A stretch of DNA of 64,000 nucleotides from Salinigranum marinum (lineage in GTDB: Archaea > Halobacteriota > Halobacteria > Halobacteriales > Haloferacaceae). The DNA lies in contig NZ_CP100464.1 of the NCBI RefSeq assembly GCF_024228675.1, forward strand, positions 1 to 64,000, written 5' to 3'. Position numbers and translations under genes: made by a program. The notes under the pieces are model-generated. The model saw only the letters and a list, made by a program, of their open reading frames with translations. It made no database searches and had not been told where the DNA came from. Below are positions 28,100-53,255 of the stretch, piece after piece (the stretch's first letter is position 1; the number at the start of each line of letters is the position of its first letter).

Positions 28100-28113
28100 C
28101 GCCTGTAGAGGGA

Positions 28114-28154: not shown

Positions 28155-28162
28155 TCAAACGA

Positions 28163-29773: not shown

Positions 29774-29807
29774 AGGTGGGAGACGGAACCCACGCGGGAA
29801 TCCCGCC

Positions 29808-29828
29808 ACCCAATTGAGGGTCGGTAAA
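29808..29828 (-). promoter_or_regulatory. TATA box with adjacent palindrome, MoxR gene
   Basis: ACCCAATTGAGGGT (29808-29821) is followed by GGTAAA (29823-29828), on the minus strand TTTACC. The start codon is 53 bases downstream, leaving a leader of about 25 bases. Confidence 0.5.
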
Positions 29829-34918: not shown

Positions 34919-37900
34919 CTATTCGTGAGAACCTGAGAAGGTCTTGGCAGCACACGGGAGCTGATTGTGTTGACACCACCGACAGTGGTCGCCATCGAGG
35001 AATCTTCCGAAAGAGAAGTCATCGATTTGGTCCATCGTCGTCGTCACGTCTACTTCGACGGTATCGATGTCGCTCTCCGTGTAGGCTCGTGTCTCGATTT
35101 TGGGTCCGATCGCGCCCACGTACGCGTATCCTGCGCGTTGAATCGGCTCGTCGTAGAGGTCGCGGCAGGCGAGCAGGTAGATGGGGAGCTGTTTATCCTG
35201 CTCGATGTCTCGGTGTCGCTCGGTCGCCTTGTAGTCGATGACGATGAGCTCGTTGTCTGGTGTTCGATAGACAGCGTCGATGTACCCGACGAGTTCGTGG
35301 CCGTTGACGTCGAGTTCGAACTCCCGCTCGGCATCGAGGAGTTCGTACCTACTCACATCCAGTTCGAAGTAACGGTCGATACACTGTTTCGCTGCTGGGA
35401 GCGCGTCCTCGACACGGCGTTTGCTGGCGAGGCGTTCACAGATGTCGTACCAGTCCGAACGGGTGCGCATCTCCTGTTTCGCCGCTTGTTCGGCAGTGTC
35501 ATGAAAGAGCACCCCGATGTCGCGCTGTGAGACGCCATCGGTCGAATCGTCTCGGTTCGCTCGGTAGTCCGGGAACGCGTTGACGACGTACTCTAGGTAG
35601 TGCTTCCGCGGGCACTCCTCGTAGGTCGACAGTGACGTGTAGCTGTGTGAGACCGCTGGCTGCGGGGTCGACGGGCCCGCGAGCACCTCGGTTTTGATGC
35701 GCTCGCGGGCGCCCGGGTGTGTGAGACGGCTCTCTACGGACGCAGTGGCGAGCTCGACCACTCGCTCACGAGCCGTCTCCACAGACAGCTCCTCGTCGCC
35801 GTGTCGTACTGTTCCCCCAGTCTGACCGACCGTGTCGCTGGCGAGCGTCTCGGTCCAGTTCCTCGCGTCCACCGGCAACGACTCCTGTACGTCGGACCAG
35901 ATCGGGAGCGTCCCCCGTTCGGGTTGCCACGGAATCCGCTCGGGCAAGAGATCCTCGGTCAAATCCAAGACGGGGTGTGTGTCTATCTCATCGTCCCCGT
36001 CGTCACTCCGACCCTGCAGCACGAGGATATCTTCGGCGCGAGTGATAGCGACGTGGAACACGCGCCGTGTCTCCCTGGCGTCACGGACGAGGAAGTCCTC
36101 GCCGAACGCCGCGGTGGGCCCGTCCGAGAGGCCCGTTTCGAGCGCGTCGTACGTCCGCGACCGTGGTGCCCACTCGTCTGCTGTGACCTGTGGGATGAGT
36201 ACCACCGGGAAGTCCAGTCCCTTGCTCTTGTGGATGGTCATCACGTTGACCGCGTCGCCGGCGACGTCGGGCTGACTCGTGGGCGCCGATCCGCTCTCGT
36301 CGAACAACGAGTCGTAGTGTTCCAGCGAGTCGATGAACTCAGGCGTGAGCGGCGGCTGGACGGCGCTGTCGCCGTACTGCTCAACGACACCGTCGAGTTG
36401 GGCGAGGTCGCGGCGTTCCTGCTCGCTCAGATACCACTCGATGTTCGTCACGTCCTTGAACCGGCGGTACAGCCGTCCGAGAGAATCCGTTTCTCGTGTG
36501 GTGAGCAGTTCAACCGCGTGTTCGCGGGCGTCTGCCACGCGGTCTGGCTCCTCGAACTCGTCGAGTGGTGTCTCTCGGAGCATGTCGACGAGTGGGTCGT
36601 CACCGGTGTTCAGCGTTCGCAGGTCGGCATCACACAGCCGATAGCGCATCGTGAGTACCCGGTTCCAACTCACCTCGTCGTCGGTGCGGGCGAGCGCCTT
36701 CAGGTACGCGGTCACGGTGCCGACGCCGACCGACTCCGTAGCGAGGTCGCCCGCGACCTGATACGGAATCCCAGCGTCTTCGAACGCCTCGATGACGGGC
36801 GTGGCGTGTGCATTCTTCCGCACGAGAAGTGCGATATCACCCGGTTCGTACGAGTCGTCCAGACAGCCTGCCTCGCCACTCAGCAGGTTCTGGACGACCG
36901 TTCTGAGTTGCTCGGCGCTGTCCATCTCAGCTTCCTCGTCCGGCTGTTCGACGACGGCAATCGTGTCGCCATCGTAGTCGGGTTCGTTCACGCGAGTAAG
37001 TGACTTGTGGCGTTGACGCTGCTCGAGTTTCGTGATCGCTTCGTTCGCCAGGTTCAGAATCGGTTGACGTGAGCGAAAGTTCTCTTCCAGCGGTTTGTCG
37101 GTGAGGGCCTCGAACACACGGTCCAGTTCGTCCGTGATGTTGGCGACGTGCGCGCCGCGCCACTCGTAGATTGCCTGGTCGTCGTCACCCACGACGAACA
37201 GGTTATCCTCGGTGACGAGCGACGTCACGAGGTTGAACTGGAGCCGGTCGGTGTCCTGGAACTCGTCGCAGAACACGTAGTCCCACCGGTCGGCGATCTC
37301 CGCACCGACCGGCGAGTCCATGAGAGCAGCCGTCTCGACGACCAGTCCATCGAAGTCGAGCAGGTCTCGTTCGTCCAGTTCACGCTCGTAGGCGGCGTAC
37401 CCGTCTGTCAGGTCCCGCGCAGTCAGACAATCCGAGAGAAACGACTCGAGGTGCGCTGTGAGTTCGAGGTTCAGTGTCTTCGGAATCCCCTTGGGAGCGC
37501 CGCTACTGTACCCGCCGAGCAGGTACTTAGGCAGTTTGTGAACGTTGTCCGGAAGCGGCGACCGGTCGCCGGCCTCGTGAGCCCGGAACGCCGCTTCGAG
37601 TGCGTCACACAGGTCGACGAGGCGGTCGAGGAAGTCACGAACGCTCGCTTCCAAGCCGTCGTCTTCGAGAGCGTCACGTTCTGCGACGAGGTCGGCCCGG
37701 GCATCCGGTAGCGAGTCGAGAACACTCGAGACGGACCGTCCACCGAGATGATTGCTGGCGATGGTTTCGACGCGTTCGGGGGTGTCTGCGACGTCGTAGA
37801 CGCGCTCGGCCGGGCCGAGGTAGGCGTCGATGTCCACGGGCTCGATGCCGCTTCGTTTCATCGACCCGATGAAATCCAGTAGCTTCGAGGCGGCACCCGA

Positions 37901-38359
37901 TGCGTAGCTAGCACCGTCGTAGACGTTCGGCTTGACTGAACGGTACTCGATCTCGTCGAGCACGTCGAGCACGATGGCGTACTTCTCGGGGTCGGTCGCC
38001 ACCTCGAAGTCGGGGTCGAGGCCGGCCTCGTAGGCGTAGTCAGTGAGGATCTCGTTACAGATGGAGTGGTAGGTGTACGCGTCAATATCGTACCCTGCCG
38101 CACCGAGCTTCGCGTTGAGCTTTTCCCGCATCGAGTCCGCAGCGTTGTTGGTGAACGTCAGCGCCAGGATGCGGTCGGGTGAGACGCCCTGTTCGTCGAT
38201 GAGGTGTTCGACTTTCCGGACCATCGTGAACGTCTTGCCCGTGCCTGCGCCGGCAAGAACACGCATCGGGTACGCCTCCGAGTCGATGATCGCTTCCTGT
38301 TGTGGCTCCGGCGAGAGGATGTCGTCAGCGACGGGCAGCCAGGACGGCTGGTCGCTCAT
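34919..38359 (-). CDS. UvrD/AddA-type helicase with C-terminal RecB-like nuclease
   Basis: A 1146-residue protein, last gene of the Argonaute operon. Superfamily 1 helicase motifs are complete: Q-motif SPEPQQEAI, Walker A LAGAGTGKT, motif II YVFCDEFQDTDR, motif III VVGDDDQAIYEWRG and motif VI HVAITRAED. The C-terminal about 250 residues form a PD-(D/E)xK nuclease: CPRKHYLEYVV, VGYIDAVYRT with the Asp, VIDYKATE with the Asp-x-Lys, and CRWCQHNQLPC for a 4Fe-4S cluster, as in AddAB. It overlaps the upstream nuclease gene by 4 bases (ATGA). With the AddB-like protein it should process DNA ends. Confidence 0.9.
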   Translation of the reverse strand: MSDQPSWLPVADDILSPEPQQEAIIDSEAYPMRVLAGAGTGKTFTMVRKVEHLIDEQGVSPDRILALTFTNNAADSMREKLNAKLGAAGYDIDAYTYHSICNEILTDYAYEAGLDPDFEVATDPEKYAIVLDVLDEIEYRSVKPNVYDGASYASGAASKLLDFIGSMKRSGIEPVDIDAYLGPAERVYDVADTPERVETIASNHLGGRSVSSVLDSLPDARADLVAERDALEDDGLEASVRDFLDRLVDLCDALEAAFRAHEAGDRSPLPDNVHKLPKYLLGGYSSGAPKGIPKTLNLELTAHLESFLSDCLTARDLTDGYAAYERELDERDLLDFDGLVVETAALMDSPVGAEIADRWDYVFCDEFQDTDRLQFNLVTSLVTEDNLFVVGDDDQAIYEWRGAHVANITDELDRVFEALTDKPLEENFRSRQPILNLANEAITKLEQRQRHKSLTRVNEPDYDGDTIAVVEQPDEEAEMDSAEQLRTVVQNLLSGEAGCLDDSYEPGDIALLVRKNAHATPVIEAFEDAGIPYQVAGDLATESVGVGTVTAYLKALARTDDEVSWNRVLTMRYRLCDADLRTLNTGDDPLVDMLRETPLDEFEEPDRVADAREHAVELLTTRETDSLGRLYRRFKDVTNIEWYLSEQERRDLAQLDGVVEQYGDSAVQPPLTPEFIDSLEHYDSLFDESGSAPTSQPDVAGDAVNVMTIHKSKGLDFPVVLIPQVTADEWAPRSRTYDALETGLSDGPTAAFGEDFLVRDARETRRVFHVAITRAEDILVLQGRSDDGDDEIDTHPVLDLTEDLLPERIPWQPERGTLPIWSDVQESLPVDARNWTETLASDTVGQTGGTVRHGDEELSVETARERVVELATASVESRLTHPGARERIKTEVLAGPSTPQPAVSHSYTSLSTYEECPRKHYLEYVVNAFPDYRANRDDSTDGVSQRDIGVLFHDTAEQAAKQEMRTRSDWYDICERLASKRRVEDALPAAKQCIDRYFELDVSRYELLDAEREFELDVNGHELVGYIDAVYRTPDNELIVIDYKATERHRDIEQDKQLPIYLLACRDLYDEPIQRAGYAYVGAIGPKIETRAYTESDIDTVEVDVTTTMDQIDDFSFGRFLDGDHCRWCQHNQLPCAAKTFSGSHE

Positions 38360-39261
38360 CGCCGCACCTCCGTAGCGAGGCGGTCCGCACACATCTCCCG
38401 GTACTCACAGTCCGGACACGCTTCGTCTGAGATGAGGCCGAACGGTTCGGGGGTGTATGCTCTCCCTGTGATACCGTCGTGTGCCTCACGGATGAGCGTC
38501 CAAATCGTGTCGTGGTACTCCTCGTAGATCTCTGTCGTCTCCCGTGGATAGCCACGCGCTGATATCGAGTACCCAGTCGGTGTGCTCTCGAACGACGTGT
38601 GATTCAGGAGGCCGTAGAAACTGAACCGCACCGCCATCCCGGGCTCGTAGAACGGCTCATTCTTGACGCCCTCGATGTATGTCGCGGTCTGGAAAGCGTT
38701 CCTGACGCGCTTTGGTTCGTGCGCGTCCCCGGCGAGATGGTCGGCCAGATAGTCCGCGGTGCCCGACGAAAGGACGCCACGAGTGTTCCGCTTGTAGTCG
38801 ATGACGTGCAGGCCGTCTGCCGTCCGAAGAACGTTGTCGACCTTCCCGTGAAGGCCACGGCCGTCGCGTTCGCACTCGACCCAGCACTCGGTCGCAATCG
38901 AGCGGCGAGCATGGTCGATGCCGTCTCCGCCATCAGGATCGAAGAACGCCTCGAGGGCGGCCCGGTTCTCGGCGCGCTGGTAGCGCTGGTGTGCCTCGGA
39001 AGCGTAGTCATCGCGGTTGCTCTGTTGCTCCCACTTCACCTCGAACGTCTCCATCGCCCGTTCGTGAATCGTCTCCGCATCGTCGTCGGAGTCCGTGGCG
39101 TCGCAGACGTCCTCGATCGTCTCGTGATAGATAATCCCCTGATTGAGGTACAGTTCGGTTCGGTCTGGGGCGGTGATATCCTGGTCGTAGCTGTAGTCGT
39201 ACAGTCGTGGACACGTAGCGTACGTCGCAAGCCGCGAGGGCGACAGCGCTCGCTCGCTCAT
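38356..39261 (-). CDS. RecB/Cas4-like PD-(D/E)xK nuclease with Fe-S cysteines
   Basis: A 301-residue single-domain nuclease of the PDDEXK_1 (AddB C-terminal, Cas4-like) type. Cys17 in ATCPRLYDYSY, then GIIYHETIEDV, HGKVDNVLRTADGLHVIDYK with the metal-binding Asp and Asp-x-Lys, and CPDCEYREMC at the C-terminus (three cysteines) complete the 4Fe-4S pattern. It could act as an exonuclease or produce DNA ends. It overlaps its upstream neighbour by 4 bases and its downstream neighbour by 4 bases, so expression is tightly coupled. In AddB this domain is fused to the helicase-like part; here it is separate. Confidence 0.88.
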   Translation of the reverse strand: MSERALSPSRLATYATCPRLYDYSYDQDITAPDRTELYLNQGIIYHETIEDVCDATDSDDDAETIHERAMETFEVKWEQQSNRDDYASEAHQRYQRAENRAALEAFFDPDGGDGIDHARRSIATECWVECERDGRGLHGKVDNVLRTADGLHVIDYKRNTRGVLSSGTADYLADHLAGDAHEPKRVRNAFQTATYIEGVKNEPFYEPGMAVRFSFYGLLNHTSFESTPTGYSISARGYPRETTEIYEEYHDTIWTLIREAHDGITGRAYTPEPFGLISDEACPDCEYREMCADRLATEVRR

Positions 39262-41339
39262 CGCCGCACCTCCCCGTTGGCGAACTCAATACGCGCACGC
39301 AGCGCTTTCCGGAGCTCTTCGCCACGCACACCGCTCTTGTCGAGTACGTCCTGTATCTCGCCGAGGTCTGCCTCAACGTCGTCGAGGGTGATCGCCACGT
39401 CTTGACTGGTCGCTCGCCGGACATCGGCGATAGCGGCATCGACCCGCGAGAGGAGAAACTCCTCGGCTGCTTTCTCGCTCGTAATCTGTGGCTGATCGGC
39501 CTCCGTCATCCACGACAGCTCCCGGTAGGCAGCAGCCAGGAACCGGGATGCCTGCGCTTGCTCTTTGAGCGCCGTGTCCTCGTACTCGTAGAGACAACAG
39601 TACAGACGGTCGGTCGCCGCGGCAGCACCGACAGCAAGCCGCCGCCGGGCGTGTTCCGCATGATACCGGGCGAACGGACGACTGGACGCTGTCGACACGG
39701 TCGGAAACGTCGCGTCGACAGCATCGTCGTCGAGCTGCGTCACAGCCGGGTAATCAGGCATCGACGCCGCTCGTTCGTTGGGGAACAGTCGCGTGAGCCA
39801 CGGGTCGCCGGGGTACTCGCTGTCGACGAGGTTCACGAGAAACACCGCTCGGAACGACTCGTTTTTGAGTGCCTGCAAGTGGTCGACTCGGACACCACCG
39901 TCGAGATCGGTCGCGCTCGTCTGGTTGTGCTTTGGAGCGTACTTGTGAGCGCGTTCGAGCGTCTCTCTAAGCGCTGGCCACGTGGCTTCGACGAACGCCG
40001 TGTCTTCGAGGAACGCGGCCATGCGGAACGCCCGACGGACGTTCCCGAACTGCGCTCGCGCGTCGAGCGGTGGGGCGCGGTCAGCGATCCGCTCTTTCAA
40101 CCCGGACTCGGTCGCCCACCGGCGGAGCGCCGCTTCGAGACCGTCCATGTCGGCGAGCGCCGTGAGGTACTCCGGATCGGACGTCGGGCCGTGCTCGCTT
40201 GTCTCAGGGGTTTCGGCAGCTGCCTCGTCTGTGGACCCCGCGGCGAGCGCGCGCACGACAGCCAGGAGCTCACGGATGGCAGGGTCGTCTCCGAAGCCCG
40301 TGACGCTCGTCGATTCGGCCGGGATGCCCGACCGCTCTAACGACTGGATCGCGTCGGTTACGCTCGACCCACCCTGCTTGGTGGCGACCGCGATGTCGTC
40401 GTACGTCCAATCCGCCCGCCCACAGAGGTCTTCAATCTCGTTTGCCACGTCTGCCAGTTGCTCCTCACTGGAGTCCGCGGCGAGGACCGATACGACACCT
40501 GCCTCAGGGTCCGTAGGGACGGACTCCGTTGCGAAGTATTCGGCCGTTGCCGCGGGTCGTGTCGACGGGCCTGTCCCCACGGTGTGGCGTTCCTCGCTGA
40601 ACGTGACGTGGTCGGTAACCGGTCCGCTCTCGACCCATGTGCGACGGATACTTGCGTTCGCTTCGGCGATACAGACAAGGTCGCAGTCACGGGCCAGCGC
40701 ATCGAGGTACGCCCGGTCGAGTGGGAAGAACTCCTCGAACTCGACGGCGAGAACGGCGTCGACGTCAACGACGTCGCTTCCGGAGTCACTCTTGAGGACA
40801 CTGAGTGCCTCGGAGATGAGCTGGCCTCGTTCCATGTGGTCGTGCTCAGCGAGCCACCCGTGGAACGCGTCGAGTCCGGCTGCAATATCACGAATTTCCG
40901 GTGTCTCGTCGGGGGTACTGGCCTGCCATGAGATCGTGTCCATCACATCCCCGACATCCTCAATGAACGAGGACTGTTCGGCGGCCCGCTGGAGATAGTC
41001 GGTCTCCCACTCGTACTCCGCGAGGAACCGATGAAGGAGTTCTCGTCGGAGTGCGTCAGAGAGGATGACACGGTCGTCGGTCTGGTTCAGGACGTCGGTT
41101 GCATGTACGACGAGCGATTTGACATATGGGATGACTGCTCCGGGGAGTTCCTTATCGAGCGTCTCACGGAACGTGTCCATACTCGTCGGTGCACCCGTAA
41201 TGACGAGCACATCCTCAGAATCGTGCTCGTCGAGCAACCGTCGGTATTCGTCCCGTACTGCCCGCTCGATGTTCTCGGCCCCGAACGGTACTGTGATTAA
41301 CGCCCCGTCGAACTGCTGGGGAGAAGAGTGGTGAGACAT
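39258..41339 (-). CDS. AddB/RecC-like protein with degenerate helicase core
   Basis: A 693-residue protein with the overall order of AddB: a strand and loop LITVPFGAENIERAV where Walker A would be but without GKT, a degenerate motif II AVEFEEFFPLDRAYLDALA, and a motif V/VI-like VDHLQALKNESFRAVFLVNL with VDSEYPGD after it. This indicates an inactivated superfamily 1 helicase scaffold. Its C-terminus lacks a nuclease domain, which is instead supplied by the next gene. It starts 5 bases after the PLD gene. It probably forms a complex with the UvrD-type protein, as AddB does with AddA. Confidence 0.75.
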   Translation of the reverse strand: MSHHSSPQQFDGALITVPFGAENIERAVRDEYRRLLDEHDSEDVLVITGAPTSMDTFRETLDKELPGAVIPYVKSLVVHATDVLNQTDDRVILSDALRRELLHRFLAEYEWETDYLQRAAEQSSFIEDVGDVMDTISWQASTPDETPEIRDIAAGLDAFHGWLAEHDHMERGQLISEALSVLKSDSGSDVVDVDAVLAVEFEEFFPLDRAYLDALARDCDLVCIAEANASIRRTWVESGPVTDHVTFSEERHTVGTGPSTRPAATAEYFATESVPTDPEAGVVSVLAADSSEEQLADVANEIEDLCGRADWTYDDIAVATKQGGSSVTDAIQSLERSGIPAESTSVTGFGDDPAIRELLAVVRALAAGSTDEAAAETPETSEHGPTSDPEYLTALADMDGLEAALRRWATESGLKERIADRAPPLDARAQFGNVRRAFRMAAFLEDTAFVEATWPALRETLERAHKYAPKHNQTSATDLDGGVRVDHLQALKNESFRAVFLVNLVDSEYPGDPWLTRLFPNERAASMPDYPAVTQLDDDAVDATFPTVSTASSRPFARYHAEHARRRLAVGAAAATDRLYCCLYEYEDTALKEQAQASRFLAAAYRELSWMTEADQPQITSEKAAEEFLLSRVDAAIADVRRATSQDVAITLDDVEADLGEIQDVLDKSGVRGEELRKALRARIEFANGEVRR

Positions 41340-41344
41340 ACTGT

Positions 41345-43465
41345 TTATCCTCGGACGAGTTTTGTGACTCGAGACAGGACACCGGTGTTGTCGGCGGCTG
41401 TGTCAGTGTCGCGTCGCGCGTCCTCGATGATATCTGGCTCGTCAATCCAATCCTCGAATCTAGTTACACTTTCAAACTGGACTGCTGGCCCGTAAATACT
41501 CGCCCGGATATGGGCTGGCGTTGCTTTCTGGAACTCCCAGCACTGCTGCTTATCCAGAGTCGAAGAGAAATCAGCGACAATACGCCCGTCATCCTTGAAG
41601 TCGAGTTCGCACAGCCCGTCAGACAGCGCACTGATCCACTTCCGTCGCCCCGGGTCGTGTTCTTGTTCGGCCGGTTTCTCCAGCGGGACGTACTCCGGTG
41701 GTTCCCTCTCGGCGTACGCATACAGCTGCGCGAACACGTCCCGAGCATCCGCGAGTCGGTCTGATTGATTCGGGAGCGAGATGTTCTTCTGCAAGAACAG
41801 GTGAGCGAACCACGGGAACAGGTTACAACTGTCTGCCTGTGCCGCTATTTGTGCGGCTGCTTCTCGTTCGTCCTTCTTCAATTCGGAGAAGTTGACGTTG
41901 AAATCCAGCGTCTTCATGCGGGTCCGAAGTTCGGATTTAGGTTTCGTGGAGTCGTTCGAGGAGAAGATGAACGTCGGCATCTGGATAGTGCCGTCCCACT
42001 TCCCTTCCCAGTACGACTTGATGATGTCTCGGTCGATCTTCGACTTCGCCACGTCGTCAACGATGTACGGGAAAACCGTGTCCGACGCTTGAGCGCGCTC
42101 GATGTTGTTTTTGATGAAGTCGTCGCCGGTCGTGACCTCCTGCACGTACCCGTTCGAGATGAGTCGCGCCCCGAACCGGAGGAACATTCCCTTACCGCTG
42201 TCGTTGTCACCGTGAAGGAACAGGAACGGTAAGTCCTTGTCCAGCTCGGCGGATTCGTATTCGGCGTAGTGATGGGCGCAGTAGTTAGCGAACGGAGCCC
42301 AGCAGAAGTAAATAACTCCCTCATAGAAGTGCGCACGCGTTTCCTTCTCGGTTCGCGTCTCTCCGAACTCGCCGACCGTTTCGACGTACTGCTCGATTAG
42401 GCTGAGCGCGTCAGCGACTTTCTGCGGATCGTCCGGGAGAGGAGCGGTTAGTTCGAGGACAGAGTCGTCAACGCGCAACCCGACCGTCTTCTCTTCGTTG
42501 TCGACGTTGATGTCAGGGTATCCGGTGAACGTCTCTTTGTATCGTGCGATGCCGGCCGGCGTCGCTACAATTTCGCCGTCGTTGATACGGATGTTATTAG
42601 CGGACAGCGTGTCGTCCAGATTTGAGATAGCGTCTTCGAGACCCTGCGGAGAGAGGCGCACACGCTTGTCCGGACTGATCTCTGTCGGGTCGGTATCCGT
42701 CTCTTCGGCGGCGAACACTACCTTCTCTGCTTCTTCGGCGTCCGTGACGGCGTTGTACGTGTTGACTTGGTCGTCGTCAACTGCTTCGTCGAGCCGGGCG
42801 TTCAGTTCGGCGACCGGATCATCACTGAACTCGTCCCCACCCAACCAGATGTCGTAGACCTTCGCCTCCTCTTCCGCCGATTCGGCGTCCTCTATCTCCT
42901 CGGTGAGATCTTCCATGAACGGCGTTGCGTAGTCCTTATGGAACGCGTAGAGTCGCTCAAACCACTCGTCGACCGGCGTATCCCCGTCGGTACGCCATGC
43001 GATATTGACGTTGGTTTGCTTGCTTCCCTGCCAGGCCTGCTTGGAGAGATTCGCCGATCCACAGATGAGTGTGCGAGATCCGTCCTGGTTCTCGATGATG
43101 TAAAGCTTCGTGTGGAGGAGGACGCGTGCGGAATCAACAGTATGAATGAGGAGGTCACCGTCTCGTCGCAATGATTCCAGTTGCGCGGCGATCTTCTTTG
43201 CATTGTTTGTGTTTTTCAACGACCGCCGGTAGTCGTCGTGCTGGTTGTCCCCGACGATGACCTCCAGTGAATCCACCGCGAGGTCCCGGTTCTGAAACAT
43301 CTTGTAGATGAACGCGGGCGACTGACTGTACGTGACGCAGTAGACATGCTGGGCGTCACCGAAGTAGTTCAGGAAACTGTTCCACGACTTGTCGGCAGCC
43401 ATCTCCAGGTCGGCGGTGCTGCCGTCATCGAACTCGACTGTTGCTTCGAATGCTGTCTTGGTCAT
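41345..43465 (-). CDS. Phospholipase D-like nuclease fused to P-loop ATPase
   Basis: A 706-residue protein. The N-terminal domain has one HKD motif: His118-x-Lys120 in LLHTKLYIIENQDGSRTLIC followed by GSANLS (136-141), typical of PLD nucleases that work as dimers. The C-terminal domain has Walker A GDNDSGKG (419-426), Walker B VFPYIVDD (464-471) and a sensor-1-like TFIFSSND (498-505), resembling superfamily 3 or D5-like helicases. It lies between Argonaute (36-base gap) and the AddB-like gene (5-base gap). The domain union suggests ATP-driven translocation on DNA coupled to cleavage. Confidence 0.8.
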   Translation of the reverse strand: MTKTAFEATVEFDDGSTADLEMAADKSWNSFLNYFGDAQHVYCVTYSQSPAFIYKMFQNRDLAVDSLEVIVGDNQHDDYRRSLKNTNNAKKIAAQLESLRRDGDLLIHTVDSARVLLHTKLYIIENQDGSRTLICGSANLSKQAWQGSKQTNVNIAWRTDGDTPVDEWFERLYAFHKDYATPFMEDLTEEIEDAESAEEEAKVYDIWLGGDEFSDDPVAELNARLDEAVDDDQVNTYNAVTDAEEAEKVVFAAEETDTDPTEISPDKRVRLSPQGLEDAISNLDDTLSANNIRINDGEIVATPAGIARYKETFTGYPDINVDNEEKTVGLRVDDSVLELTAPLPDDPQKVADALSLIEQYVETVGEFGETRTEKETRAHFYEGVIYFCWAPFANYCAHHYAEYESAELDKDLPFLFLHGDNDSGKGMFLRFGARLISNGYVQEVTTGDDFIKNNIERAQASDTVFPYIVDDVAKSKIDRDIIKSYWEGKWDGTIQMPTFIFSSNDSTKPKSELRTRMKTLDFNVNFSELKKDEREAAAQIAAQADSCNLFPWFAHLFLQKNISLPNQSDRLADARDVFAQLYAYAEREPPEYVPLEKPAEQEHDPGRRKWISALSDGLCELDFKDDGRIVADFSSTLDKQQCWEFQKATPAHIRASIYGPAVQFESVTRFEDWIDEPDIIEDARRDTDTAADNTGVLSRVTKLVRG

Positions 43466-43501
43466 GTGAGAGCTACCGGTGTGTCGATGGGTACATGATA
43501 G

Positions 43502-46189
43502 TCAGATGTACGGGACACCGCGGATGACGCTCCCCTTGGTGAGGTAGCCTTTCATGGCAAAGTCGGCGCACTTGTCGGCGTAGTACGTGGTGATGGGGAG
43601 TCGGGTGGAGCGGCTCAGCGATCCGATGTGCGCTTCCGACAGCCAGTAGGCTTGCTCCGCAAGCGTGTCGAGGTCTGTCGATCCGTGGCGTTTCACGATC
43701 TGCAGCGGCCGCGGGGTGCCAGGAATGCGCTCTCGTCCACCGGTAGTGGTGAGGTACGAGTGGTTCCCGTTGTGAACGTGGAAGGCGACACCCTTGTCTG
43801 CGACTTCGAACCGTGATTTTGACTCGTTGTACTCGGCGATACGGGGGTTTCCTGATTTCCGGATTTCGACGAGGTCGAATCGCTGAATGAGATCCCGGGC
43901 TTTGTCGAGACGTTTGATGAGGCTCTCGACATCGAGATAGAACTTCCCGTCCCGATGGATGACTACGTGCCGCGGTGGCCGGCCTTCCTCTTCAGCAAAG
44001 ATCTCTAAGACGTGCTTTATCACGTTCGCTACGTCGTCCTCGTCGAACGTTTCGCCAGCCTGCTTCGTGACGGCCTCAGACGCGAGGATGGTTCCGTCGG
44101 CCATGATGACGTTCGCGGCCGCACCGAGATGTTGCTTGGTCGCGTGGTCGTACGTCACGTCAAGCCCGACGAACGCGTCGACATCCCCCGGGACATCGTC
44201 GATACGCCACGGAACTCCCCCCGCCTTCCCGATGAGAGACGAGCAGATGTTCCCACGGTAGCTGTCGTTGCCGAGATTGTCGACGGAGATCATCTGACTC
44301 GGCACGCCGAGCTGGCCGAGCCGCCGCTTGAACTCGGGATACGGGTCATCGTAGTCCGCTGCCGCAGCCTCGTCTGCATCCGGCACGATGATCAGCGCCG
44401 CATCGTAGTCACTCGCTTTCTGCGCGTGCTGCGAGTAGTGGAACTCCGAGCCGAGTTCGTAGGTGTCGCGGTCGAAGTCTGTCGGACTCGCATCGTAGTC
44501 CGCGAGCTTGTTGAGCAGCGAGAGCACGTACGGCCGCGCATCCTTCTCTTCGTCTGCAGGATACAGTGCGATGATGTCGAACGAGTCAGGTGTCTTGTAC
44601 ACCCCGTAGCCCTTCCGCTCCAGCCCACCAGCACCGTAATACCCGGTTTTCCCGTCTCCGAACCGGAGGTTGGGACGGTTCCGAATCACGTGCTCTCGGT
44701 ACCCGATGTTTGTGGGCTGTGGGAGCGGATCGAAGCCGAAGTACGGCGTCGGGCCAAGTAGGTCGACGAACGACGTGACGACGTTGAACCGTTCTTCGGG
44801 TTTCATCCGGCTCTCGTTGTGAATGACGTTCAGGAACGTCTCATCGACGCGACCCAACTGTTCGAACGTCGGGATGACCTTGCAGTACTCTAGGACCTGC
44901 GGGAAGATTGAATCCTCGCCGCTTCCGTACTGCAGATCAGCGATGGTCGGGTCGCCGGCTCGCACCGAGTCGATGACGTCCTGTTCGACGTGCCTCTGAT
45001 GGTACTCCGACATCGGGACACCCGGCCCGTCCAGTACATCATCGTAGTCCATGTCGATGAGTTCCTTGACCGTCGCCGTGCGCGCACTGTCGTACAGGTC
45101 CGTGTCGTGCTCGACAGTCACCTCGGCAATATCGAGTCCACGTTGCACCCACTCCGCAGCGGAGAAGGTCGATTCCAGATGGTATGCGACGTTCACACCG
45201 CAAATCACAGTCCCGTCAGCATCAACGCGAATACGGCACTTGTACTTCCGATAGGCCTCAAACAACCCACTGTTCGCGGTTCGCTGTGGGGTCGGCTCAA
45301 TGATTGAATCGATACCCGACACCTCAAAGCGACCTGCAACCGCTCGTTTCACGTCCTGCTTGACGAACTCTTGGAGCGGGCCGTCGTCCGTGTACGACCG
45401 TGCTTCAAGTATCGTCTCGCCCTGATGGACCGGCTTGACCGTGTACCCGTGAATCGAGATCGTGCCGTGGAGTTCCTCAGTCGCGTAGATACGTCGCCGG
45501 GACGCATCAGCCGTCGTCACGGGACTCCTGGTCCGTGATTTGTAGTAGTTCGCCGCTTTCGCCGTGAATCCCTCAATACCGTTCGTGAAATCATCCGGGT
45601 CGATCCCGCCACTCCCGGTCGCCCGGAGTTCGTACTCATGGACAGATAGCTCCGGCAACTCCCCGAGTTCGAACTGCAGCAGGTAATTCCCGTCCGAGAG
45701 CGGCTGTTGGTGCAGGAGTTCACCACCACCATCAGCTGTCGGCCGCGAACTACCAGCGACTTCACTTCCGCGAAGAAACTCTTCACCGTCAGATGAACCC
45801 GATATCGCCGCGGTAGGACCACTCGAACCCTTCTCCCCCGACTGCTCTCCCCGTTCCTCCGAGGATTCACTTTCTGCTGACTCGTTGTTCTCGGCAGCAG
45901 CTGGAGGTTCGTCTAATTGTGTGACAGTGAGGTCATACCCTGGATTGAGTTGCATCTCGCCACGGAATTCGTTCCCTACGGCGTTCTCTAGGAGATACCA
46001 CTCCTCAGTTTGCCACTCGAAGCCCGCAACCTCGTTTTTATGAAACACTGTCATCTCTACCGTCGCATCATCGACGTCCTCGAATTGGATTTTCCGAGCG
46101 ATGGCATCGTGCTCCCACTCGTCAATCCCTGTGACGCGCAGTTCGATGTCGATCTCTGCCCCATCCTCGATATCGCCCTTATCGGCCAT
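43502..46189 (-). CDS. ago: Full-length prokaryotic Argonaute (NgAgo-like)
   Basis: An 895-residue protein, first gene of the defence operon. The N-terminal about 90 residues resemble the OB-fold domain found before the N domain in Natronobacterium gregoryi Ago, followed by an acidic Ser-rich linker (about 95-150). PAZ and MID regions follow, and the PIWI domain has an intact DEDD tetrad: Asp677 (VGLDVTYD), Glu713 (KQAGETF), Asp747 (IHRDGKF) and Asp872 (YYADKCA). The architecture predicts guide-directed DNA cleavage at high salt. The start is supported by a TATA-like TAAATAAT (46216-46223) about 30 bases upstream, so the whole operon probably initiates here. Confidence 0.9.
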   Translation of the reverse strand: MADKGDIEDGAEIDIELRVTGIDEWEHDAIARKIQFEDVDDATVEMTVFHKNEVAGFEWQTEEWYLLENAVGNEFRGEMQLNPGYDLTVTQLDEPPAAAENNESAESESSEERGEQSGEKGSSGPTAAISGSSDGEEFLRGSEVAGSSRPTADGGGELLHQQPLSDGNYLLQFELGELPELSVHEYELRATGSGGIDPDDFTNGIEGFTAKAANYYKSRTRSPVTTADASRRRIYATEELHGTISIHGYTVKPVHQGETILEARSYTDDGPLQEFVKQDVKRAVAGRFEVSGIDSIIEPTPQRTANSGLFEAYRKYKCRIRVDADGTVICGVNVAYHLESTFSAAEWVQRGLDIAEVTVEHDTDLYDSARTATVKELIDMDYDDVLDGPGVPMSEYHQRHVEQDVIDSVRAGDPTIADLQYGSGEDSIFPQVLEYCKVIPTFEQLGRVDETFLNVIHNESRMKPEERFNVVTSFVDLLGPTPYFGFDPLPQPTNIGYREHVIRNRPNLRFGDGKTGYYGAGGLERKGYGVYKTPDSFDIIALYPADEEKDARPYVLSLLNKLADYDASPTDFDRDTYELGSEFHYSQHAQKASDYDAALIIVPDADEAAAADYDDPYPEFKRRLGQLGVPSQMISVDNLGNDSYRGNICSSLIGKAGGVPWRIDDVPGDVDAFVGLDVTYDHATKQHLGAAANVIMADGTILASEAVTKQAGETFDEDDVANVIKHVLEIFAEEEGRPPRHVVIHRDGKFYLDVESLIKRLDKARDLIQRFDLVEIRKSGNPRIAEYNESKSRFEVADKGVAFHVHNGNHSYLTTTGGRERIPGTPRPLQIVKRHGSTDLDTLAEQAYWLSEAHIGSLSRSTRLPITTYYADKCADFAMKGYLTKGSVIRGVPYI

Positions 46190-46215
46190 CTACGCCGACC
46201 AACGGACGCCCCCGG

Positions 46216-46223
46216 TAAATAAT
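46216..46223 (-). promoter_or_regulatory. TATA-like box of the Argonaute operon
   Basis: TAAATAAT on the plus strand (ATTATTTA on the minus) is centred about 30 bases before the ATG at 46189, fitting a leaderless mRNA. It is in a 257-base divergent region shared with the ATPase at 46447. Confidence 0.45.
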
Positions 46224-46446
46224 TTTTCATTAGATGAATCTCAAACACGCTAAATTTTACTTAGGCTCAAATAGCTCCAAGAAGACGTCAGTACCTTGCG
46301 GCAGAGGCCCTTCGGAGACGGTATCAAGCGACACTGAGAGTCAAAATCCACACATCAAGGCTGAACAACAGCAGGGCTATCAGTCGAACCCGAATAAGGA
46401 CATCGAGATGCGTGAATACTTGTACTAGCCAATAATAATCGTCTCT

Positions 46447-48126
46447 ATGCTTGGGACAGGGAGCGCAGAAGAGTTCATCGACGACGCCGAACACCACAAC
46501 CAGTGGTGGAGCGACGGTACCTCCCCAGAAATATCGCAAGCCGTACACCTCACCCCTCGATCTGATTTCCACCGCGTCCTCAAAACAACGAACACGTACT
46601 ACACTGACGACGTCGAGAGCCTCGTCTATGCGATTTACGGGCAGACCGGTATCGGCAAAACTACTCTTCTCCACCAACTCGTCGCAGCACTCCTCAACAC
46701 GACCGACTTCCTAAACCAAAACCAAGCAGTTGAACTCACCTCCGCAATCGAACCACGGCAAATCCTCTACATCCCCTTAGAAGACTCCTTATACCAACTC
46801 GAACGCACAGGCGACGATATTAAACGCCTCAACCAAGTCATCGACTACTTCAAAACGCACGTCGCACCCCGTCGAGGACAGAAATTCATCCTCCTCGACG
46901 ATGTCCAAGCCCTTGACCTCGACGAGGACCGGAAAGCAGAGCTACTCGAACTCGTCGACGCGGATACGTATCTATTCCTGACCGGCACCGTTGCATCCCA
47001 GGTCAACTATTCCAACGTCAAAACAGCCAGCACCGTCGACAAATTCGAGGGTCCGTGGCCGATCCTCCCGATGAAATTCATCGACGCCATTCAAACCGGT
47101 AAAGGACTCAACGCCGATTTCAACGAAGAATTCCGAAGCCGGCTCGAACAATACCAGTCAACTACTTTAGACGGCCCATCGCCCATCAAGATGATTCGAG
47201 CCGGGCTGTCCGGGAATAATTCAGAGGTCAGTCTCGATACTGCTGTTGAGACACTCTCTGAGCTCTGCTTCGGCACGTTCAATGCGGACGACCGAGACAA
47301 TTTTCATGACGCCGCCCGCGCATACCTACGAACAGGCGGCATCCTTCATCACACAGACGAACCATCGATCCGGAACGACCTCTCCAAATCCCACTTTCTC
47401 CTCTTCCTCTACAAAGAGCTCGCAAAGTACCGATCCATCCAACAACCCGAAAACCTCCACCGCCTCAGTTCCATCGCAGCTACTAACGCCGGTAGGGAAC
47501 TCCAGTACACAGCACTCAGCGATCAAATCGGCGTCGACAGACGAACCGTCGATAGCTACCTCGACGTTCTTGATGAGGGAATCGCAGTCACCGAATCCCA
47601 CGACTACTCCCTGCGACGCTACCGTCGGACCCGCTTGTATCTCCGCAACCCACGTCACCTCGTTCTCCTTTCCCAACGACAGGAACACCATGGTTTCGAG
47701 GATTACGAACGACAAGACATCCTCAACCCCGAATTCGAATACAAACTGGCGCGTACCGTCGCCTTCGATCACGCCAAACGCCTCGCCTTCACCCTCGGGG
47801 CACACGACGTCGAATACACAGAAACCGAATCTGGCCTGGTCGACTACATCCTCCACCGCGATGGATACGTCCTCCCTTTCATCCTCTCTTACCATCCACA
47901 CACTGGGAACGCCGAAACAATCGCTGCAGAGTTCGACCCCGACTCCGGCCAGCACACCCAACCCGACAGTGAGGATCTCCGGGACTTGGACTACCAGGCA
48001 CGGTACCGGTACATCATCACCGACAGTCTACCAAAGAGCGTCGTCGAGAGTGAGTCACTCGTTGTTCAGAAGAACGAAGAACGAATTTGTTATCTTCCTT
48101 TTTGGCTATTCCTCTTGATTTGCTGA
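46447..48126 (+). CDS. AAA-family ATPase (archaeal ATPase/DUF4143 type)
   Basis: A 559-residue P-loop ATPase. Walker A GQTGIGKTTLLHQ lies at about residues 65-77, Walker B KFILLDDVQALDLD near 143-156, and a sensor-like YLFLTGTVASQ later. A winged-helix-like segment (TALSDQIGVDRRTVDSYLDV, with the T written here for YTALSD) follows, and the C-terminus YILHRDGYVLPFIL resembles the nuclease-like DUF4143 tail. Such STAND-type ATPases appear in defence islands and mobile elements. It is divergent from the Argonaute operon and 120 bases before the GHKL ATPase gene, which has its own promoter. Confidence 0.7.
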   Translation: MLGTGSAEEFIDDAEHHNQWWSDGTSPEISQAVHLTPRSDFHRVLKTTNTYYTDDVESLVYAIYGQTGIGKTTLLHQLVAALLNTTDFLNQNQAVELTSAIEPRQILYIPLEDSLYQLERTGDDIKRLNQVIDYFKTHVAPRRGQKFILLDDVQALDLDEDRKAELLELVDADTYLFLTGTVASQVNYSNVKTASTVDKFEGPWPILPMKFIDAIQTGKGLNADFNEEFRSRLEQYQSTTLDGPSPIKMIRAGLSGNNSEVSLDTAVETLSELCFGTFNADDRDNFHDAARAYLRTGGILHHTDEPSIRNDLSKSHFLLFLYKELAKYRSIQQPENLHRLSSIAATNAGRELQYTALSDQIGVDRRTVDSYLDVLDEGIAVTESHDYSLRRYRRTRLYLRNPRHLVLLSQRQEHHGFEDYERQDILNPEFEYKLARTVAFDHAKRLAFTLGAHDVEYTETESGLVDYILHRDGYVLPFILSYHPHTGNAETIAAEFDPDSGQHTQPDSEDLRDLDYQARYRYIITDSLPKSVVESESLVVQKNEERICYLPFWLFLLIC

Positions 48127-48212
48127 GCAGAAAACCCTGCTCTCCCCCACGTCAGCCACCTTTATTCGGCCGAGAAACTCGCCAGGGTTATCAGAATCCA
48201 ATATCACACCCA

Positions 48213-48224
48213 GAGATATATACC
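48213..48224 (+). promoter_or_regulatory. TATA box of the giant ATPase gene
   Basis: GAGATATATACC centred about 27 bases before the ATG at 48246, which fixes the start codon and indicates a leaderless transcript independent of the upstream ATPase gene. Confidence 0.5.
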
Positions 48225-48245
48225 GCTAATTGGGCACCAAAGGAT

Positions 48246-51200
48246 ATGAAAAATTCCGAGCTGGCCTCGATCTCGGATATTCAATTCCGGCACGTGGATA
48301 CATACGAGAGTAATCCGGATCGAATCGAGGCTGACGCAGGTACCGAACGTCAGGACCGCGCTGATTACGAGGGCCGGTTCGTTTTCGAGTTGCTGCAGAA
48401 CGCCGTGGACGAAATGGGTAGCATTGACGAACCACAGGTGCGGTTTGAACTCACAGAAGATCGACTCCTCGTTGCGAACAACGGCACGGTGTTCTCGTAC
48501 AACGATCTCTACGCGCTGACGCTCACAACGCGGACGACGAAAGCTGGCGAGACTACTATCGGCCACAAGGGCCGCGGATTCACGTCCGTTCTCGGAGTCA
48601 CAGACAACCCGCGTGTATTTTCAGATGAAGTGCAGGCGCAGTTCAGCCGAGAAATGACAGCAGAGTTACTAAATAACAACGATCATCTCTCTGCTGAGCA
48701 GGACGACGACCTCGCCGCAGATAAGGTGCCCTTGCTTTGTATTCCGCACGAGACAACGACCCCATCGAGAGTCCGGGAGCTCCTGAACGATGGGTTCACG
48801 ACTGTGTTCGAACTCCCGCTTAGGGAACCTGCACGGCACCGTGAATCGATCCATACGAAACTCAACGGACTTGACGCGAACACGGTCGCGCTGCTACCAG
48901 AACTTAAGAAAATCAAGATCAGTTGTCTGGAGCAGGACTGGGAATGGAAAATTTCCCGACATGACATGGCCGGCTGTGACGCGACGCTTATCAGGCTCAC
49001 CACAGACACAGCGGATGTCCTGGAGGAGACACGCACCGATTGGTTCTGCCTATTCGAACGCACTGATCTTAATCAAGAGCAGATATCGGAACGTGCGGAT
49101 CTAACCCGACCAGAGGTCGAGGCGATGGGCGAATTGAGCGTTGGCATCGCCTTCACCGCAACACCCATAGGTACCCCACCCTCCCTTCGACCCAAGGATT
49201 GGAAACTAACGCCCGTGTATGGCGATACTAACGACCAACCACCGTATCTTCACGTCTTTCTCCCGACGAAAGAACGTAGTCCAATTCCCGCGCTCGTGAC
49301 TGGGACCTTCCAGTCAGACACCTCTCGCCGAAATCTCACACTCAACTATGATGACGCACGCGAGTACGACGGTCAGTTCAACGCTCTCCTGTTCACGGCT
49401 GTCGGCCAACTCCTCGCAGATCGCGTCATCCCGTTCTTTGAACAGTCTGCAACGTCGGCGGCGGGCCTGCTTGACACCTTAGACCCGTCGTTAGGGCAAC
49501 GTCGTGACTGGTCGTTCACCCAGGGGACTGTCGAGGACTGTCTCTTCGAGGCGATCAGGACAGGGCTCACATCCGTCGAATTCCTGCCGAGCGCGCGCTC
49601 TGACCGGCGCGTTGCCATCGATGACATTACACTACCCCCCACGTCCGCACAACTCTCGGACTTGGGTGCAGACTTCGTGTCACTCCTCCAATCAGGTGAC
49701 CGTCAGATAAACGATCAGTCACGAGTCCCAGCAGCAGAACTCTCGACCCACCAGCATGCGCAGACGTTAGTCGCCTACGGTGCGTCACAGTACGATGCAC
49801 CATCGATACCAGAGGCCCTCGATGCTGTTTCTGTAGATCCTTCCCTCCGCGTCGTCGACGAGCGTGAATTCGGACGAACCCCACCGGATGACGACGAATC
49901 GTGCCATCTCACGATTGATCCAGTACTTGAATACCTCGTTCGTCTGCGCAAGACGCTGGAGAGCGACGAGGACCGATCGGCTTTCGACGAGGCGTGCCGC
50001 CAACACGCCGTCTTCCCTATCGAGATCATTACCGACCAAGATGGGATGAAGTACGCTAGACGCGGTTCGAACGAAACTGGCACGATTTTCATGCCACCAG
50101 AGGGCGACATTACAACGGACGCCCTACCGACGCTCGAATTTCTCCCACGTGAACTGTATCACGGCACGAACGCCGACCGCGCGGCGCCACTTCGAGAAGA
50201 CGTACTCCCGGCGAATTTCGACGCCGACGTTCAGGCGATCTGGGACATCAACGACTATCTGTTCTCACAAGTTTTCGACACCGCAATCAGCCCACATCTT
50301 CCTGGACCAAACTCACCGAATGCGGACTCATCCATCCTTGCGTCCGATGACGTGCTACGAACGATCCGGGAGATGACGGACGTCCAATCGCCCGAAAACG
50401 AACGCAGTCCAGAGTCCCCTCTTCTCTACCAGTCCGCAAAAAAACCGTTTTCAGCGCTCGCACAGCTCCCCGTTCCGACGCAGACAACAGATGGAGATGT
50501 CGAGTGGAATCCTGCACACCGCGTGTACTTCAACTCGACTTGGCAATCCGCACTCGGCCGCCCCGAAGACGCTCACATCGAACCGTTCCTCGACGCCGTT
50601 GCCGCGCAAACCGATTCCGAACGGTTCGATCCAAAGTTCCTGGCTTCACCTGCATGGTTCACTCCTGACGAGGACGAACCGCACTCGAAGACGCTTGAAG
50701 CGTGGGCAGCGTTCTTCTCGTGGCTCGGCGTTTCCGAACACATTCGTCCACTACCACTGTTCGCACCAGGTGAACGGCAGAGCTATCGTCAGACACAAGG
50801 CCTCAACCGACCGCCGAAATCGACGATCACAGCTTCCGATGACCTCCGATCTGACGGCGCGAAGTCTGCCGACAATCGGTACACAGGACTTACCGAAGCG
50901 GAATGGCAAGCGTATCGTGACCACCTCGTGGGCGCGGTAACCCCGGAGATTCCCGATCCGGATGAGCAGTACCTGTTCCAGGTAAACTCCTTAGAGTACG
51001 CGTCAGAAACCCTCTCGGCCGCGAAACAATCTGACGCGGTTGGCAGCCGCCTCCTGACGCACCTCATGCACTGGTGGGACCACGGTCTCTCCGCACGGCG
51101 ACACGCGACAGTCGCGGAGTTCACCAACGAACGATGGCGTGGGAGTAACGTCAGTTACGTGTTCAACCCCGACGAACAACGGTCGCTTGGCTGGAACCTG

Positions 51201-53255
51201 TGGGTGTGGCAAATTCGGCAAGCTCGCTGGGTCCCGACAGCGTTCGACGCCGTGCGCCCCACGGCCGCGTGGAGCCTTCCACGCAGAGATCGTGACCGCT
51301 TCAGCCTCGAAGTGAACGGGATGCAGCCCTTGCTGCCGTTCGTGCACGGGGACTTCCCAACCAGAAAAACCGAGACGACTATCAATTTCGAAGAACTCAC
51401 CGACACACTCGGCATTGGGGTGCGACTGGAGCAAGACACGTTCTCGCCACAGGACGCCGAGCGCGTGATCAGTCGTATCGGGGAGTTACTCGATTGGACC
51501 GATAACGACCTCGCCCAGTACAGCAGTGCCGTCGAACTACTCTACACACGTGTCGCAGAGCTTCTCCCAAGACTGAAGCGCGGTGATCCTATCACCGGAG
51601 ACTGGGCCCCCGAACAAAGTGAACTCGCGGACGCCCTCGTACTCTGTAGGGTTGACGACGAATACGCCCTCAGACGCGCGAGCGACACCTACTTCATCCG
51701 GTCACGCAGCAGCCGCGACCGCTATGGGAGCCTCGGTCTTCCGCTCCTCGCTATGTTCAAACCGGAAGCCGTCAGTCTCGGAGAGTACTGCGGCGCGACT
51801 GACTTGCGAACTGCCGTTGAGGAACAACCCGGATACGGCGATGAACGCCCCCTCCCGACAGCCATCTCAGGCTTCGAGATCGACGCCAAGTGGCTTCAGA
51901 CAGTCCTCGCAGCACTCGTCCTACGGCTCCGGACGAGTCGCCCGTCATCCGCACTCGTCGACCAAGACACTGCCCGAACACAATCATTTCTCGAGAACAT
52001 CGTGTTCGTTACCGACCTCGATCTCAACATCTCGCTCACCGACGGCAGCTGGAACCGAAACCTCGACCCGAAACCGCAGCCATACCACATTGAACGCGAC
52101 GGTGACACGATTGAAACGATCCTCATCGACGCGACACTTGACCGAGAGGAGTTCGTTGAAGCACTCACCGGCGCGTACACCGACCGGCTCGATGTTCCCC
52201 AGTACTACGAGGCCGTAAACAACCTCGTAGACCACGCGTTCGGGAACCCAACGCCAGCCATCGCGTTACGTGAGCGACTCCGTACCGTGGGGAGCGAAGT
52301 CCCGACCGGCCAAGTTGAGGCAACCCGTGTCACCCTCTTCGAAGGTACCGAGGCCTCGCCAACTGGAGAGGCTGACGTAGGTCACCCACCCGAACCAGAG
52401 ATAGATCATAACGGTGCGTTCAATCCCGACCGAAGCACACACGCCGACCCAAGCAATGGCGAATCAATAGCATCCACTGGCACAGGTGGAACCAGCGCAC
52501 ACTCTTCGCGCGTCCCAAGTATCGAAACAGTCACTCGAATCGGAGACCGTCGAATCGCCGAATCATTCCGGAATGCCGACGTGTCTATAGACCAAGCCAA
52601 CAACGGCAGTCGCCAGCCCTCAGGGAACAGGCGTTCTACATCCGGTAGTCATAGCGGCGGTGGACCCGCATCACAGGAGTACCGTGACAAGATTGACGCG
52701 TTCGGCATGGCAGTTACACTCGATGCAGAGCGAATCCGACTAACTGACGAGAACGAATCAGATCCGGAATCGAAGGTATTCGACGTCCATACGCCAGAAG
52801 AATACGAGAAGCACCGTGAGACCTCAAAACTCCTCGAACAAGCGATCCATCGATTCGCAGAAACACGCGGTCTTTCCGCCACAGAAAACCCTCTTGACCG
52901 CAACTGGCCTGGATTTGATATCTTGACCATCCGAACCGACGACAGCGGCAGCCCAATTATTGACCGCTGCATCGAGCTCAAAACATCTGGGCGAAACACT
53001 CAAAAACCGTCCCTCTCGTGGAACGAATGGAAAGCCGCGGGTGGGCCGCTCAGCGAACACTACTACCTCTATGTCGCCCGAAACATCCGGCTCGGCAACA
53101 GTGGCGACGCAGAACTCCTCGAAATACCACAACCGTTCGACCGGTTACGTAACAGACGACGCGACACACGCGAACGGAACGTACAGGTGGATCTCCGCAG
53201 CTTCGACTTCAGCGAGGACCCAATCGTCGAACGTCCAATCGAGTGGGAGGAATAA
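48246..53255 (+). CDS. Sacsin/NO VEIN-like GHKL ATPase with C-terminal DUF3883
   Basis: A 1669-residue protein. The N-terminal HATPase domain shows the N box FELLQNAVD (47-55), the G1 box ANNGTVF (77-83) and the G2 loop IGHKGRGF (105-112), as in Hsp90, sacsin and the plant protein NO VEIN. The middle about 1200 residues have no recognised domain. After a Ser/Asn/Gly-rich linker (about 1430-1520) a DUF3883 domain closes the protein, with NWPGFDILTI and CIELKTSGR in a PD-(D/E)xK-like arrangement and NEWKAAGGPLSEHYYLYVAR. This domain set is found in large prokaryotic defence proteins. The start is set by the TATA box at 48213-48224. Confidence 0.78.
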   Translation: MKNSELASISDIQFRHVDTYESNPDRIEADAGTERQDRADYEGRFVFELLQNAVDEMGSIDEPQVRFELTEDRLLVANNGTVFSYNDLYALTLTTRTTKAGETTIGHKGRGFTSVLGVTDNPRVFSDEVQAQFSREMTAELLNNNDHLSAEQDDDLAADKVPLLCIPHETTTPSRVRELLNDGFTTVFELPLREPARHRESIHTKLNGLDANTVALLPELKKIKISCLEQDWEWKISRHDMAGCDATLIRLTTDTADVLEETRTDWFCLFERTDLNQEQISERADLTRPEVEAMGELSVGIAFTATPIGTPPSLRPKDWKLTPVYGDTNDQPPYLHVFLPTKERSPIPALVTGTFQSDTSRRNLTLNYDDAREYDGQFNALLFTAVGQLLADRVIPFFEQSATSAAGLLDTLDPSLGQRRDWSFTQGTVEDCLFEAIRTGLTSVEFLPSARSDRRVAIDDITLPPTSAQLSDLGADFVSLLQSGDRQINDQSRVPAAELSTHQHAQTLVAYGASQYDAPSIPEALDAVSVDPSLRVVDEREFGRTPPDDDESCHLTIDPVLEYLVRLRKTLESDEDRSAFDEACRQHAVFPIEIITDQDGMKYARRGSNETGTIFMPPEGDITTDALPTLEFLPRELYHGTNADRAAPLREDVLPANFDADVQAIWDINDYLFSQVFDTAISPHLPGPNSPNADSSILASDDVLRTIREMTDVQSPENERSPESPLLYQSAKKPFSALAQLPVPTQTTDGDVEWNPAHRVYFNSTWQSALGRPEDAHIEPFLDAVAAQTDSERFDPKFLASPAWFTPDEDEPHSKTLEAWAAFFSWLGVSEHIRPLPLFAPGERQSYRQTQGLNRPPKSTITASDDLRSDGAKSADNRYTGLTEAEWQAYRDHLVGAVTPEIPDPDEQYLFQVNSLEYASETLSAAKQSDAVGSRLLTHLMHWWDHGLSARRHATVAEFTNERWRGSNVSYVFNPDEQRSLGWNLWVWQIRQARWVPTAFDAVRPTAAWSLPRRDRDRFSLEVNGMQPLLPFVHGDFPTRKTETTINFEELTDTLGIGVRLEQDTFSPQDAERVISRIGELLDWTDNDLAQYSSAVELLYTRVAELLPRLKRGDPITGDWAPEQSELADALVLCRVDDEYALRRASDTYFIRSRSSRDRYGSLGLPLLAMFKPEAVSLGEYCGATDLRTAVEEQPGYGDERPLPTAISGFEIDAKWLQTVLAALVLRLRTSRPSSALVDQDTARTQSFLENIVFVTDLDLNISLTDGSWNRNLDPKPQPYHIERDGDTIETILIDATLDREEFVEALTGAYTDRLDVPQYYEAVNNLVDHAFGNPTPAIALRERLRTVGSEVPTGQVEATRVTLFEGTEASPTGEADVGHPPEPEIDHNGAFNPDRSTHADPSNGESIASTGTGGTSAHSSRVPSIETVTRIGDRRIAESFRNADVSIDQANNGSRQPSGNRRSTSGSHSGGGPASQEYRDKIDAFGMAVTLDAERIRLTDENESDPESKVFDVHTPEEYEKHRETSKLLEQAIHRFAETRGLSATENPLDRNWPGFDILTIRTDDSGSPIIDRCIELKTSGRNTQKPSLSWNEWKAAGGPLSEHYYLYVARNIRLGNSGDAELLEIPQPFDRLRNRRRDTRERNVQVDLRSFDFSEDPIVERPIEWEE

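Follow-up and report, generated by a model that had tools for sequence, protein, structure and literature searches.

An Argonaute-PLD operon of haloarchaea that carries a putative split AddAB-like helicase-nuclease

On balance, the operon described here appears to join an Argonaute-PLD cassette of the published APAP type to a portable, split AddAB-like helicase-nuclease, with Argonaute (Ago) and its PLD partner cutting DNA and the three AddAB-like proteins (the trio) degrading it. It lies in a window of 64,000 nucleotides, the whole stretch of DNA that was analysed, in a 145-kb contig within a 4.9-Mb haloarchaeal genome. The guide source and the finishing-off of targets in native hosts are the questions at stake for long Argonautes: the link to RecBCD comes from work on an Argonaute put into E. 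coli, and here both halves occur naturally in one operon. The original prediction of an Argonaute defence operon with its own RecBCD/AddAB-like helicase-nuclease holds as to conserved gene order, and gains from a wider tie between Agos and DNA-end processing, but the proposed dedication of the machine to Ago does not hold. The sequences document the parts, their intact motifs, the conservation of the operon, the independence of the trio, recombination at its join and the recurrent pairing of Ago with end-processing genes; we infer every biochemical step, the contacts between modules and the role of a divergently transcribed ATPase.

Layout and parts of the operon

The minus-strand operon encodes, from first gene to last, Ago, a PLD-ATPase, an AddB-like protein, an Fe-S nuclease and a UvrD-RecB helicase-nuclease (Table 1). 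The close packing originally predicted for these five genes is confirmed by the ORF coordinates: gaps of 36 bases between the Ago and PLD genes and 5 bases between the PLD and AddB-like genes, then two ATGA overlaps of 4 bases, one joining the AddB-like gene to the small nuclease gene and the other the small nuclease gene to the helicase gene. The second overlap takes the helicase to start at ATG 38359; its open frame (34919-38392) opens at GTG 38392, but the gene is best read from the ATG, because the overlap then results and the start agrees with that of relatives. The TmtA-like giant gene is an optional neighbour outside the conserved unit. No Rfam match to a structured RNA was found across positions 30000-54000.

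Table 1. Features of the operon and of its surroundings (window coordinates)
Feature	Positions	Strand
Rad50-like AAA protein and Mre11-like phosphoesterase, 4-base overlap; same contig, about 26 kb from Ago	12874-17696	
IS605 OrfB/TnpB-type gene	21311-22672	
AAA_5 (MoxR-like) ATPase adjoining VWA-domain protein	25465-29809	-
AddA-like UvrD helicase with PD-(D/E)XK nuclease, four conserved Cys	34919-38359	-
Fe-S PD-(D/E)XK nuclease, 301 aa; AddB C-terminal domain as a gene of its own	38356-39261	-
AddB-like scaffold, 693 aa; SF1 helicase fold lacking Walker motifs and nuclease domain	39258-41339	-
AgaP-type protein, 706 aa; PLD nuclease at N terminus (HxK...GSxN), P-loop ATPase at C terminus	41345-43465	-
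Long Argonaute, 895 aa; intact DEDD tetrad D677/E713/D747/D872	43502-46189	-
Shared divergent promoter region, 257 bases; conserved TATTTA box about 36 bases before Ago ATG	46190-46446	.
Divergent AAA ATPase (P0006), 559 aa; DUF4143-like part, PDC-S01-like	46447-48126	+
TmtA-like giant protein with sacsin-type N part; uncertain start (TTG opens the frame)	48087-53255	+
PCNA-like clamp gene, then TFB gene, on the plasmid-sized contig	53520-55775	

Catalytic motifs had been predicted to be intact everywhere except in the AddB-like core, and this is borne out in the Ago, PLD, small nuclease and helicase sequences. The Ago has a Piwi domain, and its tetrad is invariant among 13 haloarchaeal Agos; in the PLD protein, H118-x-K120 and G136-S137-x-N139 are invariant in 12 proteins and the P-loop spans G419-K425. 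The ATPase part gave weak fold matches only (RavA, SaPI5 primase-helicase), and the C-terminal part is classed no more closely than as a P-loop ATPase. The model of the PLD domain has the piRNA nuclease Zucchini among its matches, at the level of a generic PLD fold; a PDB profile search with the PLD protein as query gave no match. The N-terminal domain of the Ago (residues 1-113) recurs as separate haloarchaeal proteins of about 340-370 aa (L090, L091, L115-L121), and in one trio group the gene for such a protein sits convergent just beyond the trio helicase.

The profile of the AddB-like protein finds Bacillus subtilis AddB at 6.5e-9, and its structure model has its best TM-scores (0.66-0.67) with AddB chains; a Walker A/B motif was found in none of 21 relatives. 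The small nuclease matches PDDEXK_1 at 8e-23 and has a DYK motif and invariant cysteines (C17/C282/C285/C291), and as query in a PDB profile search it gave no match. Together these two proteins correspond to one AddB split into two genes. The helicase combines UvrD domains and PDDEXK_1, with DEFQD and DYK motifs and invariant C927/C1137/C1140/C1147, and by these domains and motifs it is predicted to be of AddA type, a UvrD-type helicase fused to a RecB-type nuclease. An AddB proper has the helicase-like fold and the C-terminal Fe-S nuclease in one polypeptide; the window has them in separate genes, and the trio is therefore classed as AddAB-like rather than AddAB. Enzymes of the AddAB kind also unwind and degrade double-stranded DNA processively from its ends and respond to Chi. 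Two other assignments were rejected. In Gabija a GajA nuclease adjoins the UvrD helicase GajB; the helicase here scores with models of GajB, yet no neighbour scores as GajA. For a Cas4 of CRISPR adaptation there are weak Cas4 scores only and no Cas1 or Cas2 among seven scanned proteins, and the overlap of the small nuclease gene with the AddB-like gene also bears against it. A distant trio family is common in family f4 genomes (L129, L130, L132), where the small nuclease keeps its cysteines and the DYK motif is lost.

Conservation of the unit and independence of the trio

The main survey covered 391 Halobacteria genomes and was extended by a GenBank scan. Full-length Agos 83-100% identical to that of the window occur in 14 of the 391, with the trio following on the same contig in 13 of these; in Haloferax profundi the Ago contig stops inside the PLD gene and a close copy of the trio lies on another contig. 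The GenBank scan adds the operon in Halosimplex salinum, Halosimplex pelagicum and Natronomonas gomsonensis, and an Ago alone in Halobacteriales archaeon YIM A00013. The predicted linkage of the five families, in this order, is thus found across Halobacteria: the unit is kept in about 17 loci in many haloarchaeal genera with nearly invariant gaps, the one between PLD and AddB-like genes departing from 5 bases at two loci only and the 4-base overlaps being present in nearly all (the Ago-PLD gap, 36 bases in the window, is 63 in most relatives). Other genera show this gene order, with almost identical gaps, at 71-95% protein identity, which excludes a chance arrangement. The Agos of this operon form one clade at full support, and in every locus of the clade with a full-length Ago and the operon, the divergent ATPase gene lies 255-260 bases from Ago; it is absent beside a lone Ago (L197). 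The conserved unit therefore has six genes, the ATPase, which was not in the originally predicted set, being the sixth.

Partial or damaged versions were also seen. The lone Ago (L197:10001-13557; 80% identical) has no PLD, trio or ATPase gene nearby, and the gene after it has a serine-recombinase-like start. A second copy on the main contig of the window's own genome (L033, G000:C1:1510000-1529999) has an Ago cut to residues 337-895 and no ATPase, with PLD and trio intact; in Halocatena pleomorpha (L036:7665-8627) the PLD protein lacks residues 79-317, including the catalytic part, and Ago and trio are intact.

Two parts of the original prediction are contradicted by the wider distribution: that a RecBCD/AddAB substitute would be rare in archaea (of the 391 Halobacteria genomes, 139 have AddB-like relatives and 86 whole AddB), and that the machine would be dedicated to Ago. 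Among 37 places with close trio copies (at least 70% identity), 17 show a link to Ago, which is full length in 14 and truncated or broken in 3, and these include Haloferax profundi, where the link spans a contig break; the other 20 are unlinked, and trio frames stay open where Ago or PLD has decayed. The unlinked trios usually form a transcription unit of their own and neighbour McrBC, type III restriction or TmtA-like genes; PLD scraps remain just upstream of AddB in five of them (L095, L097, L098, L099, L102), suggesting that there Ago-PLD was probably lost and the trio retained. On the trio tree, linked copies are intermingled with unlinked ones, with at least 8 changes on well-supported branches, and forcing the linked trios into one clade is rejected (AU test, p-AU 5.5e-5). 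Together with the Ago-free copies, this rules out the trio as an Ago-only partner. A viral origin found no match in one IMG/VR scan with the AddB-like protein, able to find close relatives only.

The window itself most likely records an exchange of the trio. Identity to relatives is about 0.90 through Ago-PLD and declines to roughly 0.65-0.80 as PLD ends; the window Ago is nested inside its clade and the window trio is outermost of the close set; and imposing the Ago grouping on the trio data is rejected (p-AU 4e-48). These observations point to a trio derived from another lineage and swapped in by recombination where PLD ends, leaving the 5-base join intact.

End processing beside other Argonautes and the role of the trio

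Other haloarchaeal Agos have different machines as neighbours. Around 51 Ago loci, which represent 14 lineages at 60% identity (near-identical loci being non-independent), an end-processing machine is found in the same operon as Ago in 33 and anywhere in the fetched locus in 41, compared with 1 of 40 random 20-kb regions and, once trio genes were masked, 3 of 39 Ago-free islands, a contrast that is inflated by the choice of families after the Ago loci had been viewed; genes in this survey were called by a simple script, and the trees were quick ones. The machines include whole AddAB (L059, L063, L064; convergent in L065 and L071), Mre11-Rad50-NurA (L055, L062), Rad50 with HerA (L069, L073-L075; nearby in L076, L079, L084), MrfB-MrfA (L083, L085-L087), a UPF1-like helicase with a phosphoesterase (L047, L049) and a phosphoesterase with a Rad50-like protein (L058). 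The association of Ago with DNA-end processing is real rather than noise, and the recurrence of different machines suggests that shredding of broken DNA is a built-in step of haloarchaeal Ago immunity. A more tentative generalization, which we consider possible but would not yet lean on, is a two-step design: a guide-directed break-maker and an interchangeable engine (split AddAB, whole AddAB, Mre11-Rad50-NurA, Rad50-HerA, MrfAB, UPF1-like), which separate Ago lineages would have recruited over and over and which would both destroy the target and renew the guides. Such recurrence makes a general rule testable, and offers candidate partner sets for Ago tools.

For the operon in the window, the following sequence of events is proposed. 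Guide-loaded Ago and its PLD-ATPase partner would introduce nicks or breaks into plasmid or virus DNA; carried by a motor-less AddB-like scaffold with the Fe-S nuclease, the AddA-like helicase-nuclease would load on the DNA end and degrade the molecule; and some of the fragments may load as new guides, perhaps as a by-product. The trio would be a general module, kept by haloarchaea beside several DNA-cutting defences and captured here by Argonaute. Observations against this proposal are the frequency of trios without Ago, which may mean that the link is loose, the 80% identical Ago at L197, with none of the partner genes nearby, and the published NpAgo-AgaP pair, which works without any trio (PMC11442185).

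How much of the trio's work might instead be guide supply? It is possible that it mainly makes short DNA fragments for loading into Ago, with target degradation secondary: a review names the degradation of invader DNA by RecBCD or AddAB as the source of pAgo guides (PMC12948488), the trio shares its operon with Ago, and the Zucchini match could be read the same way, although the PLD fold is a generic one. Trios without Ago, or beside guide-free restriction systems, argue that guide supply is not their general job, and most other haloarchaeal Ago-PLD loci lack the trio; we consider this reading unlikely. Destruction of cut DNA is favoured as the putative role, because trios are found, too, with cutting systems that work without guides, the McrBC, type III restriction and TmtA-like neighbours of Ago-free trios being consistent with it; both activities may occur.

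Another possibility is that an independent defence or repair trio came to lie behind Ago-PLD within a defence island and then travelled with it, with no joint work. The conflict between trio and Ago phylogenies, the decay of Ago or PLD beside intact trios and the 20 Ago-free copies among 37 all fit such simple neighbourhood, but it remains doubtful: replacement of the trio has left the operon and its 5-base join in place at almost all loci, and unrelated Ago lineages have gained functionally similar machines far more often than controls. The trio might also clear or repair chromosomal damage caused by Ago and a toxic PLD protein, rather than attack invaders. AddAB-type enzymes prepare broken DNA ends for recombination. 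AgaP alone is toxic in Haloarcula hispanica (PMC11442185). Self-protection of this sort seems very improbable, however: the Natrinema pellirubrum Ago-AgaP pair is tolerated in that host with no trio added (PMC11442185), and trios are also present without Ago or PLD. Cutting by Ago-PLD followed by degradation by the trio is therefore retained as the preferred reading.

Comparison with known systems

The Ago-PLD half is already known as APAP, a long-A pAgo with the PLD protein AgaP, from Natrinema pellirubrum, whose authors noted a nearby helicase gene; NpAgo and its partner restrict plasmids and a virus, PLD catalysis acting on plasmids and Ago catalysis on a single-stranded DNA virus, and Ago keeps the toxicity of the PLD protein in check (PMC11442185). 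The window pair, with its long pAgo bearing a DEDX tetrad, an adjacent PLD gene in the same operon after a short gap, and HxK and GSxN residues, appears to be a divergent member of this system. Both have a catalytically intact long Ago and an adjacent PLD gene with the same C-terminal P-loop domain; the window PLD protein is homologous over its length to NpAgaP (L057) at 32-33% identity, the Ago-PLD gap is 36 bases as against a published 31-64, and an ATPase homologue (61%) is also present near the NpAgo locus. The window Ago is only about 34% identical to NpAgo, however, and the H-to-G spacing of the PLD site is 18 residues rather than about 52. The wide HxK/GSxN spacing described as peculiar to AgaP comes from an insertion that the NpAgaP group has and the window protein lacks. 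The additions over APAP are the split AddAB-like trio, a three-gene module absent from the NpAgo locus, and the divergent ATPase.

A partial search of the open literature found neither the split AddAB trio described, nor the six-gene unit or its recombination exchange, nor different end-processing machines recurring by Ago lineage. The closest functional parallel is CbAgo, which makes breaks in DNA that is then degraded with RecBCD (PMC10164581): in both cases a catalytic DNA-targeting pAgo would have its breaks handled by a RecBCD-class enzyme (as proposed here), but for CbAgo this was the unlinked enzyme of a heterologous host, whereas here it lies inside the operon. Nucleases and UvrD/DEAD helicases, including Cas4 and PLD orthogroups, were likewise reported in a survey of pAgo operons (PMC6299218), with no defined composition; the present loci conserve a single composition of six genes, and complete machines for end processing turn up repeatedly according to Ago lineage. 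With bacterial AddAB (B. subtilis; 3u44, 4cej) the trio shares an AddA-like UvrD helicase-nuclease, an inactive AddB-like helicase fold and a nuclease of Fe-S type, but AddB is in two genes with a scaffold lacking the P-loop, the helicase's own nuclease domain also has four conserved cysteines, and the trio is encoded within a defence operon.
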